64,000 nucleotides of DNA from Halobacillus shinanisalinarum (GTDB lineage: Bacteria; Bacillota; Bacilli; Bacillales; Halobacillaceae), in the NCBI RefSeq assembly GCF_022919835.1, contig NZ_CP095074.1, forward strand, positions 4,823,026-4,887,025. Direction: 5' to 3'. A program made the translations under genes and the position numbers. The notes below the pieces were generated by a model. The model did not search any database, was not told where the DNA came from, and saw only the letters and a program-made list of their open reading frames with translations. Below are positions 35,748-42,225 of this stretch, in pieces. The first letter of the stretch is position 1. Each line of letters begins with the position of its first letter.

Positions 35748-36968
35748 TTGAAATTCTTTCAACGAGTTAAATACACAGCATATAGCGCTTATGCCGCATG
35801 GAAAGGAGCGACTTATGATTTTTCCTCATGGATGGGTAAGACGTTTTGGGGCATTGACAATTCCACCTTAGCTACGAATGAGACGATTTTCAGCGTGGTT
35901 ACGCGGTTATCAAATAGCATGGCCTCACTACCTTTAAAGCTTCATGAAAATTATGCTGTGGTGAACAATGAAGCATCTGACGTTTTAATAAATGAGCCGA
36001 ATCAAAACATGTCTTCCTTTGAGTTTATTCGGAACTTGGAAACGTCCCGTAATGAAACCGGGAATGGGTATGCTGTGATTGAAAGGGGTATCCGAAACCA
36101 GGTTTCTCGTTTAACCATCGTGGATGCTAACCACGTAAACCCTGTGATAGAAAGATACACACGTGATTTATGGTATGAGGTATTAGGAGAAGACGGGAAA
36201 CGTTATTACTTTCATAATGCTGACATGATACACGTTAAACATATCGTAGGAAACTTAGGGATAAAGGGCATTGATCCGATTAAAGTGTTATCGAATGCTA
36301 ATGAATTTGATAAAGCGGTTCGTGAATTTAGTTTGAAAGAAATGCAAAGCGCCCCTAACTCATTCATTTTAAAATACAACGCAAATGTGGATTCGGATAA
36401 AAGAAAGCGGATCATTGATGACTTTAAACGTTTTTATAAGGATAATGGCGGCATTTTATTCCAAGAACACGGAGTTGAGATCAATCAACTGGACAGGAAG
36501 TATGTGGCAGCTGATACTTTAGCGACCGAACGTATTACAAAATCACGAGTGGCCAACGTTTATAACATGCCAGTGATCATGTTGAATGATACAGAGGGTG
36601 CTAGCTATTCCAGCAATGAACAGCTCATGCGAATGTTTGTGCAGCTTACTCTAATGCCAATCGTAAGGCAGTACGAACAAGAATTTAATAGAAAACTCCT
36701 CACACCAGCCGAAAGAAATGCTGGTTTTTATTTTAAATTTAATATGAAAGCTATGTTACGCGCTGATACACAAACGCAAATGGATGCTTACTTTAAAGGG
36801 ATTCGCTCAGGCATTTATGAACCAGATGAAGTGCGGCAATGGGAAGAACTTCCCCCACGGGGAGGGAATGCAGGGAAACTATGGCTTAGTGGTGATCTTT
36901 ACCCTATGGATATGGATCCGAAAGAACGTAAATCATCATCGAAAGGTGGTGGTGCTGATGAAGATTAA
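35748..36968 (+). CDS. Portal protein, HK97 type
   Basis: A 406-residue portal subunit (forms the dodecameric DNA channel at one capsid vertex). The family pattern N-E-T-I-F-S-V-V-T-R-L-S-N-S-M-A-S-L-P and VKHIVGNLGIKGIDPI is clear. The start is TTG 35748 with GGGAGGTGAT seven bases upstream. It overlaps the next gene by 11 bp. Confidence 0.95.
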   Translation: MKFFQRVKYTAYSAYAAWKGATYDFSSWMGKTFWGIDNSTLATNETIFSVVTRLSNSMASLPLKLHENYAVVNNEASDVLINEPNQNMSSFEFIRNLETSRNETGNGYAVIERGIRNQVSRLTIVDANHVNPVIERYTRDLWYEVLGEDGKRYYFHNADMIHVKHIVGNLGIKGIDPIKVLSNANEFDKAVREFSLKEMQSAPNSFILKYNANVDSDKRKRIIDDFKRFYKDNGGILFQEHGVEINQLDRKYVAADTLATERITKSRVANVYNMPVIMLNDTEGASYSSNEQLMRMFVQLTLMPIVRQYEQEFNRKLLTPAERNAGFYFKFNMKAMLRADTQTQMDAYFKGIRSGIYEPDEVRQWEELPPRGGNAGKLWLSGDLYPMDMDPKERKSSSKGGGADED

Positions 36969-38160
36969 CGTGGTGTATGGGCCACCGGCAAGCGGTAAAA
37001 CGACATATGTACAAGAGAATAAAAATAATTACACATTAATTTATGACTTTGACAAATTAATGCGGGACTTAAGCGGATTAGATTTATATGATCGACACTT
37101 GAATGTCATTGATTATGTGGTGGCTTTTCGATCACAGATTATTGAAATGCTTAAGAGCGAAACGAGATTTGATGAAGCGTGGCTTATCATATCTTATCCC
37201 AAAATAGAGTTTATTCAGGAGTTAGAAGGGCTTGACGTTTCTTATCAATTGATGGAAACAGACAAGGAAACCTGTAAACAACGCATCGATGAAGATGAGG
37301 AGCGGAAGGATAAAGCCCTTTGGAAACAGCTTGTAGAGGAGTGGTTTAAAAAACATGATAATCAGGATATTAACCAACGAAAGGGGGTGAGTTCAAAAAT
37401 GAGCAAGCAACAAAAGAAAAAGTTCTGGGAAATGAAGATGTCTGCTGTAGGCAATAGCTCAGCGGATATTTTTATTTATGGTGATATTGAGCGCTATCAA
37501 TGGCTGGAAGAAGATACGACAGCATCTAGTTTCAAAGCGGACTTAGATGAATTAGGCGATGTATCAACGATTAATCTTTATATTAACTCACCCGGCGGAT
37601 CTGTTTTTGAGGGTGTAACGATTCACAACATGCTGAAACGGCACAACGCTCACATCAATGTCTATGTAGATGCCTTGGCCGCATCAATTGCCAGTGTTAT
37701 TGCCATGGCCGGCGATACCATTCACATGCCAAAAAACTCTATGCTTATGATTCATAATGCTTGGAATATTGCTATCGGCAATGCTGCTGAATTAAGAAAA
37801 GCAGCTGATGATCTGGACCGTATCAATAATTCTGCCGTACAATCCTATCTGCAAAAGTCAGGGGATAAGTTGGATGAATCTAAGTTGCAGGAAATGTTGG
37901 ATGCTGAAACTTGGTTATCAGCAGATGAAGCTTTCCAGTATGGCTTGTGTGATGTGGTCCTGGAAGAAAATCAAATGGCTGCATCTGTCAGCAAAGAACT
38001 ATTTGAGAAGTACAAGAATGTACCGGACTTCTTAAATAAGAAAGTGGAACCAAAAAAATCGGCTGCTATTTCAGAAAAAGAAATGGCAGAGCGGCAAAAG
38101 ATTGCGGAACAAGCAAGATCAAATTCAAATTATATCAATGATATTCTGGGAGGAATGTAA
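36958..38160 (+). CDS. P-loop kinase-like domain fused in frame to ClpP-type prohead protease
   Basis: A 400-residue frame from ATG 36958. Residues 1-140 form a P-loop NTPase with VVYGPPASGKTTYVQ at 4-18, similar to small AAA/kinase proteins placed between portal and protease in some phages. Residues 148-400 are an S14/ClpP-type prohead protease with YINSPGGSVFEG, catalytic Ser in DALAASIAS and His in MLMIHNAW. An internal start ATG 37399 has the strong site AAAGGGGGTGA, so the 253-residue protease is surely also made alone. The fused form may be a read-through product. The protease matures the capsid by removing the delta domain of the capsid protein. Confidence 0.9.
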   Translation: MKINVVYGPPASGKTTYVQENKNNYTLIYDFDKLMRDLSGLDLYDRHLNVIDYVVAFRSQIIEMLKSETRFDEAWLIISYPKIEFIQELEGLDVSYQLMETDKETCKQRIDEDEERKDKALWKQLVEEWFKKHDNQDINQRKGVSSKMSKQQKKKFWEMKMSAVGNSSADIFIYGDIERYQWLEEDTTASSFKADLDELGDVSTINLYINSPGGSVFEGVTIHNMLKRHNAHINVYVDALAASIASVIAMAGDTIHMPKNSMLMIHNAWNIAIGNAAELRKAADDLDRINNSAVQSYLQKSGDKLDESKLQEMLDAETWLSADEAFQYGLCDVVLEENQMAASVSKELFEKYKNVPDFLNKKVEPKKSAAISEKEMAERQKIAEQARSNSNYINDILGGM

Positions 38161-38161
38161 G

Positions 38162-39376
38162 ATGACGAAGCGCAAAGAACTATTTAAGACAGTAAAACAA
38201 AAGAATCTATTAAAATTAGATCTCCAACATTTTGGTGATAAGACGTTATATGAGTTAAAGCAAAACATGACCACGGTTGGTCAGCAATTGCAAAAGACAG
38301 AAGATGCACTGGCATCAGCTGCTATTGATACAGGCAAATCAACTGAGGACATTCAAGCCCTGCAAAAATCACGTGATGATTTAAAAATGCGGTTTGACGT
38401 AATCAAGAATCAGCACGATCAGCTTGAGGAAGAACAACGTGCAAAGTTCGCGAAACAGGATAACCTTCAAGCGATCGACGACCCAACTGAACAAAAAGTA
38501 AAAGCAAAAGCAGAACTAATTCGTGCGACGATGCGACAAAAGCCTATCTCAGGTGATGTAAAAGCGGCTCTAGGTGATGAGGGAACGACAAACGGAGATA
38601 AGTTCTTACCTAAAACAGTTTCTTCAGATATTCTTACTGAGCCTTATGTGAAGAACCAACTACGCGGGGTTTCAGACTTTACGCAAATCACAAACCTTGA
38701 GATTCCTAAACTGAATTTCTCTTTAGATGATGATGACTTTATCGCAGATAAGGAAACGGCGAAGGAGCTTAAAGCAACAGGGGATGTCGTAACGTTTGGT
38801 CGTCATAAGTTTAAAGTGTTTGCTGGTATTTCAGAAACCGTCCTAAACGGTACTCACACAAACCTAGTCTCACACGTGGATCGTGCCCTATCTTCTGGTG
38901 TAGCTGCTAAAGAAAAGAAAGTCGCTTTTGCTGCAACTCCTAAGGTTGGGGAAGAGCACATGTCTTTCTACTCTACGCAGAACGCCATTAAGAAAGTGGC
39001 AGGCGAAAATATGTACAAGGCGATTAAAAATGCTATTGCTGATCTTCATGAGGATTACCGTGAAACGGCGAAAATCGTTATGCGGTTCCAGGACTACTCA
39101 GACATGATTGAGGTCTTGGCCAACAATAACTCAACACTCTACACAGCTCAACCTGAGCAAGTATTAGGGAAGCCGGTTATTTTCTCTGATTCAGCTGTAA
39201 ATCCTGTTGTGGGTAGTTTCATGTATTCTCATTTTAACTATGATCTAGGTATGCTTTTCGATCGTGATAAAGATGTTAAAACAGGTATTGAGCAGTTTGT
39301 CATTACAGCATGGATGGATCACCAGATCAAACTCAAATCAGCCTTTCGTATTGCTGAAGTTACTGCGACACCCTAA
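38162..39376 (+). CDS. Major capsid protein, HK97 fold
   Basis: A 404-residue HK97-type major capsid protein. ATG 38162 with GGAGG eight bases upstream is preferred over an in-frame start at 38102 inside the protease gene. Residues about 15-125 are the helical delta (scaffold) domain removed by the protease; the mature part starts near GDEGTTNGDKFLPKTV. The zero-frame protein ends ...T-A-T-P at CCC-TAA (39371-39376). The +1 frame continues without stop into an Fn3 domain (to 39641), which strongly suggests a second, longer capsid protein made by frameshifting. Confidence 0.95.
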   Translation: MTKRKELFKTVKQKNLLKLDLQHFGDKTLYELKQNMTTVGQQLQKTEDALASAAIDTGKSTEDIQALQKSRDDLKMRFDVIKNQHDQLEEEQRAKFAKQDNLQAIDDPTEQKVKAKAELIRATMRQKPISGDVKAALGDEGTTNGDKFLPKTVSSDILTEPYVKNQLRGVSDFTQITNLEIPKLNFSLDDDDFIADKETAKELKATGDVVTFGRHKFKVFAGISETVLNGTHTNLVSHVDRALSSGVAAKEKKVAFAATPKVGEEHMSFYSTQNAIKKVAGENMYKAIKNAIADLHEDYRETAKIVMRFQDYSDMIEVLANNNSTLYTAQPEQVLGKPVIFSDSAVNPVVGSFMYSHFNYDLGMLFDRDKDVKTGIEQFVITAWMDHQIKLKSAFRIAEVTATP

Positions 39377-39641
39377 TGCGCCCTCTGGCTTAACAGCAAC
39401 CAATGTGACAGACACAAGTCTAACGCTTAATTGGGATGCTGTTTCGTACCCAGAGGGAATTCAACACTATGAAGTCTTCCGTGATGGGGAATTCTTAGAT
39501 ACAAGAGTAGGAACAAGTTTTGCGGATAGTGGATTGACTGCCTCCACTGATTATAGTTACCAGGTTAAAGCGGTAGCTAATAATGGAGCGGCGTCTGAAT
39601 TAAGTGAGCCACTAGTTGTTACAACTTCAGCAGCAGTATAA
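39372..39641 (+). CDS. Fn3 domain, +1 frameshift extension of the capsid protein
   Basis: About 90 codons encoding one fibronectin type III domain: APSGLTATNVTDTSLTLNWD, then HYEVFRDGEFLDT and TDYSYQVKAVANNGAASE. No start codon with a ribosome site exists at its beginning. Reading CCC-TAA with a +1 slip (CCC to CCT, then AAT) joins it to the capsid protein as V-T-A-T-P-N-A-P-S-G-L. Ig-like/Fn3 domains added to capsid proteins by frameshift are known in siphoviruses and decorate the capsid surface. Confidence 0.85.
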   Translation, partial: PNAPSGLTATNVTDTSLTLNWDAVSYPEGIQHYEVFRDGEFLDTRVGTSFADSGLTASTDYSYQVKAVANNGAASELSEPLVVTTSAAV

Positions 39642-39655
39642 GGAGGGATTGATTC

Positions 39656-39964
39656 ATGCTAACAGCAGAGCAGTTCCTACCAGAGATTAAAAACTGGCTA
39701 AGAATAGATGGAAGTGAGGATGATCAAATCCTCACTTCTTTATTCTTATCTGCGAAAGAATTTCTAAAAGGGGCGGGTATTCCTGAACCGGATCCTCCGT
39801 CTGAAAGGTATAAGATTGCTATCCTTCTGATGGTCTCAAATGGATATGAGAATCGATCACCTGTTGTAGTTGGAAGCAGTGCTTCAGATCTCCCATTTAG
39901 CTTACAAACCTTTATTTTGCAATTAAAAGCTGAGGCACTGCCAAGCGAGAGTGATGTAACGTGA
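39656..39964 (+). CDS. Head-tail connector protein (gp6-like)
   Basis: A 102-residue all-helical protein of the HK97 gp6-like connector family (LTAEQFLPEIKNWLRIDGSEDD, then F-L-S-A-K-E-F-L) that docks under the portal. AAGGAGGGATTG precedes ATG 39656. It overlaps the next gene by 4 bp. Confidence 0.88.
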   Translation: MLTAEQFLPEIKNWLRIDGSEDDQILTSLFLSAKEFLKGAGIPEPDPPSERYKIAILLMVSNGYENRSPVVVGSSASDLPFSLQTFILQLKAEALPSESDVT

Positions 39965-41044: not shown

Positions 41045-41632
41045 ATGGCATCATCAATCGTTGGTTTAAAAGATTTAGTTTATGCACCTTTACTCGATGA
41101 TTCAGCATCGGGCGCAACATACGGAGAAGTAAAACCTTTGGCGCCTGCAATCACAGCTTCTACGGAGACAGCGGAAGAAACAGCAACCCAGTACGCTGAT
41201 AACGGTCCTATTGAAGTTGTTTCGCAAATCGGCGAGACGACAATAACAATCACAGCTTCTGCACTTGAACAGGCCGTATTGGCTGAAATCCTCGGTCAAG
41301 AAGTTAGAAAAGGTGTCATTGTTTATAAACAGACGGCCACAGCACCTTATATCGCAATCGGTTTTAAAGGGACTAAAGCAAACGGTAAAAATCGTAATGT
41401 TTGGTTACTGAAAGGTCGTTTTGCCACACCGTCTGACGAGTGGAATACAAAAGCAGATTCCCCTGAGTTCTCAAACCAAGAAATTACAGCTACTTTCATT
41501 CGTCGCGATTTTGATGAAGCGTTCAAGATTACGGGGGATGAGGAAGTAACAGAATTTGATCAGTATAAAGGAACCTTCTTTGATCAAGTCTTTGATCCGG
41601 CTCAGCTTGATGTTGCGCCAACTACGCCCTAA
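41045..41632 (+). CDS. Major tail protein
   Basis: A 195-residue phi13/TP901-type tail tube subunit. It contains GLKDLVYAPLLDD at the start and the family's E-V-V-S-Q-I-G-E-T-T-I-T-I-T region. AGGAGGAATTC precedes ATG 41045. The gene ends ...ACG CCC TAA, the same CCC-TAA context as the capsid gene. Here the +1 frame has only 38 codons, without a recognisable domain, and passes through two hairpins. Confidence 0.9.
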   Translation: MASSIVGLKDLVYAPLLDDSASGATYGEVKPLAPAITASTETAEETATQYADNGPIEVVSQIGETTITITASALEQAVLAEILGQEVRKGVIVYKQTATAPYIAIGFKGTKANGKNRNVWLLKGRFATPSDEWNTKADSPEFSNQEITATFIRRDFDEAFKITGDEEVTEFDQYKGTFFDQVFDPAQLDVAPTTP

Positions 41633-41642
41633 GCTTGCGGTT

Positions 41643-41661
41643 GCGGGGTTTTTAACCCCGC
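41643..41661 (+). terminator. Perfect hairpin 10 bp after the major tail gene
   Basis: GCGGGGTT-TTT-AACCCCGC, an 8-bp perfect stem starting 11 nt behind the TAA. It could stabilise the mRNA, act as a weak terminator or serve as a frameshift-stimulating structure for the CCC-TAA site. Confidence 0.5.
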
Positions 41662-41683
41662 CCAGCCGTATTATGAATGACAT

Positions 41684-41714
41684 GCGCCCGTCTAATCGCG
41701 GGCGTTTATTTTTA
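41684..41714 (+). terminator. Terminator between tail tube and chaperone genes
   Basis: GCGCCCG / CGGGCGT stem followed by TTATTTTT. It probably lowers expression of downstream genes relative to the abundant tail-tube protein. Confidence 0.7.
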
Positions 41715-41728
41715 AGGAGGATTATACA

Positions 41729-42055
41729 TTGGAAATCGTACTAAAAATAAATGGTGAAGATAAAACATTTACTCAGTCGTTTGTATCTGGATACTGCTTT
41801 AAAAAAGCGTTGGAGCTGTCTACTGAGGAAGAGAAGAAGGGCTTTGACGTTAAAATACTTGAAAAAGAAATCGATTTTGTTTGCGAAGTGTTTAATAACC
41901 AGTTCACACGTGATGAATTCTACAAAGGCGTGGATGCGACAAAACTGATGAGTGAGATTCGTCGCATCATGGGAGAAGAGATCCTTGGATTGCCGTCTGA
42001 AGATGAGATTACGGATTTTTTGACACAACAGGCGGAGAACGAAAAAGGCGCGTAA
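41729..42055 (+). CDS. Tail assembly chaperone (gpG-like)
   Basis: A 108-residue acidic helical protein in the position of lambda gpG, between the tail-tube and tape-measure genes. The start is TTG 41729 with AAGGAGGATT upstream. It ends at TAA 42053-42055, but the -1 frame continues for about 60 codons (see next entry). Confidence 0.88.
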   Translation: MEIVLKINGEDKTFTQSFVSGYCFKKALELSTEEEKKGFDVKILEKEIDFVCEVFNNQFTRDEFYKGVDATKLMSEIRRIMGEEILGLPSEDEITDFLTQQAENEKGA

Positions 42056-42225
42056 CCTTCGCTGAACAGTATGACAATCTAAAAAAAATGTATCGTGAAT
42101 TGATGCAGAACGGATATAAGTTGCCAGAGATCGATGCAATGGATATCCGTTTTTTCTTTGAATTAATGGGAGCTGAAAGTGAACCACAACAGCCGAAACT
42201 AACGCCAATTGATCATGTTTTCTAA
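42043..42225 (+). CDS. -1 frameshift extension of the tail chaperone (gpGT-like)
   Basis: From the five-A run at 42042-42046 the -1 frame reads ...RRVTFAEQYDNLKKMYRELM and ends at TAA 42223-42225 just before the tape-measure gene. There is no ribosome site for separate initiation. A gpG/gpGT pair made by -1 frameshifting is conserved in most long-tailed phages. The slip site GAAAAAGG is not a classic heptamer, so the exact position is uncertain. Confidence 0.75.
   Translation, partial: KRRVTFAEQYDNLKKMYRELMQNGYKLPEIDAMDIRFFFELMGAESEPQQPKLTPIDHVF

Follow-up and report, generated by a model that had tools for sequence, protein, structure and literature searches.

A proposed CCC-stop +1 slip site at the end of a phi12-like prophage capsid gene of Halobacillus shinanisalinarum, and relatives predicted to carry half-domain tags

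In this study, we analysed a window of 64,000 nucleotides at the end of the 4.89-Mb single-contig genome of Halobacillus shinanisalinarum. The window contains a prophage head module in the order portal, ClpP-type protease, capsid, connector and head completion (Table 1), and an ORF that looks terminase-like by eye precedes the portal. The capsid protein matches Phage_capsid in Pfam (E 1.2e-12), the major head protein in PHROG (E 7e-56) and the major capsid protein in chain B of PDB entry 7rwz (E 4.8e-103, residues 27-400 matched). It belongs to the phi12-like HK97 family, with homology over most of the protein.

Table 1. Features of the capsid region and of the tail gene, in positions of the window
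Feature	Position	Strand	Basis
ORF with head maturation ClpP-type protease	36784..38160	+	Pfam CLP_protease 9e-31
Gene of the 404-aa major capsid protein (HK97 type, phi12-like family), read in the zero frame	38162..39376	+	ORF, Pfam/PHROG
Candidate +1 slip site CCC_TAA	39371..39376	+	Sequence; conservation; hexamer is that of SPP1 17.1
+1-frame extension, 88 aa, complete Fn3	39375..39641	+	Pfam fn3; omega; no early start preceded by SD
Possible 3' stem, 39393-39398 paired with 39437-39442	39393..39442	+	Fold z -3.4
Head-tail connector (gp6-like)	39656..39964	+	Pfam Phage_connect_1 2.7e-8; PHROG head-tail adaptor
Major tail protein gene, ends CCC TAA	41045..41632		37-aa +1 frame

The capsid gene ends GCG ACA CCC TAA. 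CCC occupies positions 39371-39373 and TAA 39374-39376, and the overlapping CCT at 39372-39374 is available in the +1 frame. That frame is open for 88 codons, from AAT at 39375 to the stop TAA at 39639-39641. Its protein begins NAPSGLTATNVTDTSLTLNW, and the peptide predicted across the slip site contains VTATPNAPSGLTATNVTDTSLTLNWDAV and TATPNAPSG. A preliminary description of this DNA had claimed that the gene ends ACA CCC TAA and that a slip would lead into a complete Fn3 domain lacking a start site of its own. The arrangement is confirmed from the sequence and recurs in relatives. The extension matches Pfam fn3 with E 1.8e-12 over profile positions 2-83 of 84, and is thus a complete Fn3 domain. 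The lack of a usable start is likewise borne out, since its first 40 codons contain a single possible start, GTG at codon 11, which lacks an SD-like sequence. Of the 10 proline codons of the capsid gene, only the terminal one is CCC, and in 45 ORFs of the window CCC accounts for 61 of 625 proline codons (9.8%). The connector gene starts 14 bases beyond the stop of the Fn3 frame. Among phage records, the nearest relatives of the Fn3 domain are found in phage TS-12, in fragments of Listeria phages and in B. subtilis phages, where they belong to major tail proteins; one of these tail proteins, with its Fn3, is annotated as a gene joined from two pieces. The record of Stenotrophomonas phage TS-12 (MW302330; L116) has CCC TAA followed by Fn3, and its annotation there gives only a 36-aa hypothetical protein; its stated host looks doubtful because the capsid end resembles, by eye, those of Bacillota phages.

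Viral contigs, genome contigs and phage records supplied relatives of the capsid, and so did 19 of 398 genomes searched from the class. The searches were pattern-seeded around the window capsid family, and three of them took the best 80 of 140, 323 and 87 relatives. Phage records with a capsid match numbered 212; four were taken in by that match and one more via Fn3. The sample comprises 338 loci with a complete capsid C-terminus, including the window (given here by L numbers), among which many contigs are present more than once; 199 are distinct, and they form 130 clusters at 92% identity. A terminal CCC directly followed by a stop occurs in 42 clusters (TAA 36, TGA 3, TAG 3). The +1 frame is open for at least 15 codons in 40 of these 42 compared with 27 of the 88 others (Fisher p 6.4e-13), and for at least 40 codons in 21 of 42 compared with 7 of 83 (p 3.8e-7), the latter comparison setting aside five clusters whose CCC is the penultimate sense codon. 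Of the two CCC-stop clusters below 15 codons, L235 is a true exception, its +1 frame being closed after 5 codons, whereas L362 is cut by the contig end. The closest capsid relative among the matches listed, L002 (82% identical), lacks an extension, so an extension must be easily acquired or dropped.

Purifying selection acts on the +1 frame. In 15 of the 21 pairs formed by the window and six relatives, omega is 0.11-0.37, the pS of the other pairs being saturated and synonymous change being near saturation in many of the 21. For the window against five of the six relatives omega is 0.11-0.31, and the sixth pair is saturated. Differences over all pairs fall mostly at the third codon position (544/438/1039 by codon position). 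A +1 shift that adds the Fn3 domain to the capsid protein, as the preliminary description had it, is supported because the CCC-stop and an open, selected +1 frame are kept in many phages.

Three main solutions for the capsid end are distributed over the 130 clusters: no extension, +1 at CCC, and -1 at a slippery site. A -1 site (A_AAA_AAG, A_AAA_AAA, G_GGA_AAA, or A_AAA before the stop) was assigned to 33 clusters by a simple rule, namely X_XXY_YYZ close to the end or a run of four equal bases ahead of the stop. The -1 frame is open for at least 15 codons in each of the 33, compared with 18 of 97 without a site. One of the 33, L354, has a weak A_AAC_CCT. Seven non-CCC clusters have a +1 frame of at least 40 codons; in four of them (L115, L289, L355 and L356, one from a Clostridia assembly) the capsid gene ends AGT GTC TGA, with neither CCC nor a slippery heptamer at the end, and a +1 frame of 77-81 aa is conserved. 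In a quick tree of 125 capsids (five partial capsids left out), the states none, +1, -1 and GTC need 29 changes, with 46 of 122 inner branches weak and gain indistinguishable from loss; the well-supported branches alone force at least 13 changes for +1 and 4 for -1.

The modules reached by these shifts are also varied. Among 27 +1 or GTC extensions of at least 40 aa, Pfam recognises fn3 in 15, Rho_N in 9, SAP in 6 and Big_2 in 1, and among 29 -1 extensions of at least 40 aa it recognises HeH in 11, fn3 in 2 and Big_2 in 2, where one protein may match several families and 6 of 35 -1 frames were left out as next-gene-like. Fn3 domains 61-64% identical to that of the window are reached by -1 at A_AAA_AAG in L010 and L198. 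No in-frame domain follows the capsid in any of the 338 collected loci (199 distinct), and the longest in-frame tail is a T-rich stretch of 24 aa. In three Paenibacillus prophages (L106, L107 and L108), the capsid and a tail protein both appear by eye to have a similar -1-frame module of about 91-94 aa.

The window feature is real and of the +1 type known from phages SPP1 and PSA; it is a further case of an established kind of recoding, here in a capsid gene. According to the available text of PMC6316719, a +1 shift at CCCUAA adds an Fn3 domain to the tail tube protein gp17.1 of the B. subtilis phage SPP1 (giving gp17.1*), the short and long forms occur at 3:1 in virion tails, and the paused ribosome is described as moving from CCC to CCU at that hexamer. 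As described there, SPP1 shares with the window a CCCUAA overlapping the stop, the +1 direction, a single Fn3 domain (87 aa in SPP1) and a low-GC Bacillota host, but its Fn3 domain sits on the tail tube protein instead of the capsid. With the same site and domain type, SPP1 is a closer parallel than the Listeria phage PSA, which the preliminary description had named. The PSA parallel is itself correct: in the available part of PMC5009743, the capsid gene cps is extended by +1 at ACA_CCC, as predicted for the window, and the tail gene tsh at a CCC-stop, and the PSA record is annotated with 'ribosomal slippage'. Unlike in the window, the slip in cps is placed at CCC_UCC before a pseudoknot, and the cps extension is not Fn3-like by eye. 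Pairwise similarity of the window capsid to that of PSA was considered and rejected, as BLASTP gives none. PHROG 10 is common to the window capsid and to L398, a relative of the PSA capsid, and since only this profile links them, the two are at most very distant kin.

The same available text of PMC5009743 reports Ig-like extensions in the major coat protein of T3 and in Lactobacillus phage A2, among others; these resemble what is predicted for the window in placing a C-terminal Ig-like domain on some virion subunits by frameshifting, but the shift is -1. The phi12/SaPIbov5 capsid of 7rwz is of the same family as that of the window, as its E-value above indicates, but phi12 (L245) has a different, 19-aa +1-frame peptide after CCC AGC TAA. 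The word 'frameshift' is absent from the main text, as available, of the paper on this structure (PMC8569155), and a paper on P. larvae phages (PMC6070908) names, in its available part, the tail-assembly frameshift only. Our literature search, within the accessible text of its sources, found no report of a +1 extension in the capsid family of the window.

We propose, with a probability of roughly 90%, that most ribosomes stop at the TAA and that some slip by +1 to make an Fn3-tailed capsid protein, which would be co-assembled, exposed outside and weakly adhesive. The slip site, the open frame with its domain, the selection on that frame and the joint conservation of site and extension are read from the sequence, and from them we infer the slip itself and its efficiency: the majority of ribosomes would terminate to give the 404-aa protein, and a minority would pause with tRNA-Pro(UGG) on CCC and the stop codon in the A site. 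The peptidyl-tRNA-Pro would then re-pair from CCC to CCU, one base forward, and reading would resume at AAT 39375 for the 88 further codons. The longer protein would join some positions of the shell, with its Fn3 domain expected outside, sticking weakly to cell-surface glycans. The location and the adhesive role are suggested here from the accounts of the SPP1 Fn3 domain in the available texts of PMC6316719 and PMC8718954. One host tRNA-Pro gene was found, with anticodon UGG; 150 of 306 candidates were scored at first, so the tRNA list of the host may be incomplete. The fold z-score downstream of the site is -3.4 in the window, -0.1 in L019 and -0.2 in L022; for the possible 3' stem, a candidate stimulator of the slip comparable to the structure behind PSA cps, 28 of 500 shuffles were as high for pairing and 29 of 500 for the covariation score, so that neither stands clearly above shuffling.

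Other accounts of the locus can be weighed against these data. A single-base difference would be enough for a sequencing or assembly error to have broken one true in-frame fusion, but the CCC-stop and open +1 frame recur in many separately sequenced phages, which argues against an error, and the 338 collected loci (199 distinct) include no in-frame domain fusion; this account is barely conceivable. It is very improbable that the Fn3 domain is made separately, by re-initiation or an internal start, as a free decoration protein. In six related clusters (see below) the second part of the domain is indeed an ORF of its own with a ribosome-binding site and ATG, and in L017 a start with an SD-like sequence lies near codon 41 of the Fn3 frame. 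However, in 16 picked clusters with a complete +1 Fn3 or Ig-like domain, including the window, no start preceded by an SD occurs within the first 40 codons of the extension, a late start would drop strands A and B, and the conservation of CCC would be left unexplained. An unexpressed remnant of recombination would fit the 29 state changes on the capsid tree, which are frequent, but the +1 frame is under purifying selection and CCC is retained together with the Fn3 frame, so that we give this account hardly any credence.

The family also bears on whether Ig-like domains are frameshifted by chance or because only some subunits may carry them. The chance view, reported in the available part of PMC5009743, is a rival to selected recoding and not to the frameshift itself: recombination would insert the domains without regard to frame, and frameshifting would then express the ones that do not fit. 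Both +1 and -1 are used and presence is patchy, as this view would expect. Random frames, however, predict that about a third of the domains share the capsid frame (with the caution that some gains may have a common origin and that sampling is uneven), and 0 of 199 distinct loci has one, while +1 and -1 sites replace each other and several kinds of shift site and module occur. With the same caution about independence and sampling, this absence makes the chance view hard to square with the collection, and we regard it as unlikely.

In six clusters (L007, L081, L103, L175, L185 and L207), the +1 extension is only 20-23 aa long and then meets a stop. Their matches run from positions 1-2 to 21-22 in an Fn3 profile of 90 positions, made from the complete extensions of the same family and used with E-values for a search of size 1. 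The next ORF in each is equipped with a ribosome-binding site and ATG of its own; it covers profile positions 30-32 to 85-88 and continues into Big_2 domains. Isolates with the split domain include Virgibacillus sp. AGTR 5 and Paenibacillus ihumii AT5. Pfam fn3 gives E 0.0057 and 0.027 with two of the first halves (21-23 aa), below its cut-off. The cut lies 1-3 residues past the conserved Trp, and because this Trp ends strand B in Fn3, the split falls in the B-C loop. Differences in the half-Fn3 tags are biased to the third codon position (62/48/112).

As a check, viral contigs were searched with the Fn3 second half (A7) alone; 69 stretches matched the pattern, of which 8 encoded a relative. 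A first half lies directly upstream at all 8 loci, with a weak match in one. Four of these (L393, L395 and L396, judged by contig name, and L397) are query sequences or identical to them in the part read. The four new loci are L394, behind a head structural protein (PHROG 2729) ending CCC TAA; L398, behind a relative of the PSA capsid (45% identical to PSA Cps) with CCC TAA; L399, behind another HK97 capsid with CCC TAA; and L400, a high-GC locus with an in-frame first half that matches weakly (E 0.02). When 398 genomes of the phylum were searched for second halves, 16 genomes matched, mostly with long proteins as judged by open-frame length, and no case was added; L407, the sole locus of this search inspected, showed no split. 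The literature found, including PMC8008677 and PMC8718954 as far as their text is available and with subscription journals poorly covered, contains no report of a split-domain capsid tag. We propose that these relatives are the new part of the system and that they carry frameshift-encoded half-domain docking tags.

Recoded peptides of about 20 aa, similar to one another, occur on the capsids of L245 (phi12), L380 and L383-L385, and in L292, L101, L299 and L300; the Staphylococcal type is reached via +1 and the Enterococcus type via -1, and no partner ORF was seen adjoining either. They were tried as Fn3 halves but went unrecognised by the Fn3 profile (best E 0.012, search size 1), so they are not counted as such.

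The predicted half-domain tags are not confined to Fn3 or to capsids. In L024, CCC TAA closes both the capsid gene and the tail tube gene, and the +1 frame behind each encodes a Big_2 first half (profile positions 3-30, E 8e-5, and 4-32, E 0.06, of 79). The ORF after its tail gene opens with a Big_2 second half (35-67), and a further first half is recognisable by eye at its end. The partner protein of L399 likewise ends in a new first half (Fn3 profile 2-21, E 1.5e-4). These two proteins, in which a second half-domain is followed by a first (L399:2492-2755, Fn3; L024:6578-6835, Big_2), might conceivably form a head-to-tail polymer or be circular permutants.

Of 55 distinct tail-protein ends examined, five have a CCC-stop, and all five, from four distinct phages, carry by eye a +1 tag of the same kind as the capsid of their own phage. 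The tags are half Fn3 in L007 and L084, which are near copies, half Big_2 in L024, and an 18-aa IGxAxIGxxFII-like peptide in L020 and L044. An 18-aa +1 peptide of this kind is also found on the capsids of L011, L015, L033, L099, L261 and L282. The ORF next after capsids with this peptide is collagen-like in two cases by Pfam and in the others by eye (ORFs were listed for seven of the eight loci, and L044 was read from its frames). Differences in the IG peptide are also third-biased (86/76/141). No second partner ORF was seen after the tail gene within 680 bases in L020, 663 bases in L044 and 219 bases in L007. One partner docking on the same tag at both head and tail would account for this pattern.

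From these patterns in the sequences, we put forward, at even odds, a broader proposal: the C-terminus that frameshifting adds to the capsid would be an exchangeable socket under selection, which recoding keeps substoichiometric. In some phages this socket would be half an Ig fold, either strands A-B of Fn3 or a Big_2 first half, and a separately encoded docking protein starting with the other half would complete the fold in trans, on capsid and tail tube alike. The two partners ending in a first half (L399 and L024) could then chain into a fibre. If real, the split-domain relatives would represent a new docking of virion decoration proteins, with half an Ig fold per partner, and the split fold would be usable as a protein-coupling tool.

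The major tail protein of the window itself has a CCC-stop and does not carry its capsid's kind of tag. Use of the same device there is not supported: the 37-aa +1 frame has, by eye, no recognised likeness and runs through strong hairpins, and the relatives in L017 and L095 (61-65% identity) end otherwise. Two strong hairpins follow the tail gene at 41630-41720 (z -3.9), and at 41729-42208, before the tape measure gene, lie two small ORFs that resemble by position a G/GT pair of tail assembly chaperones.
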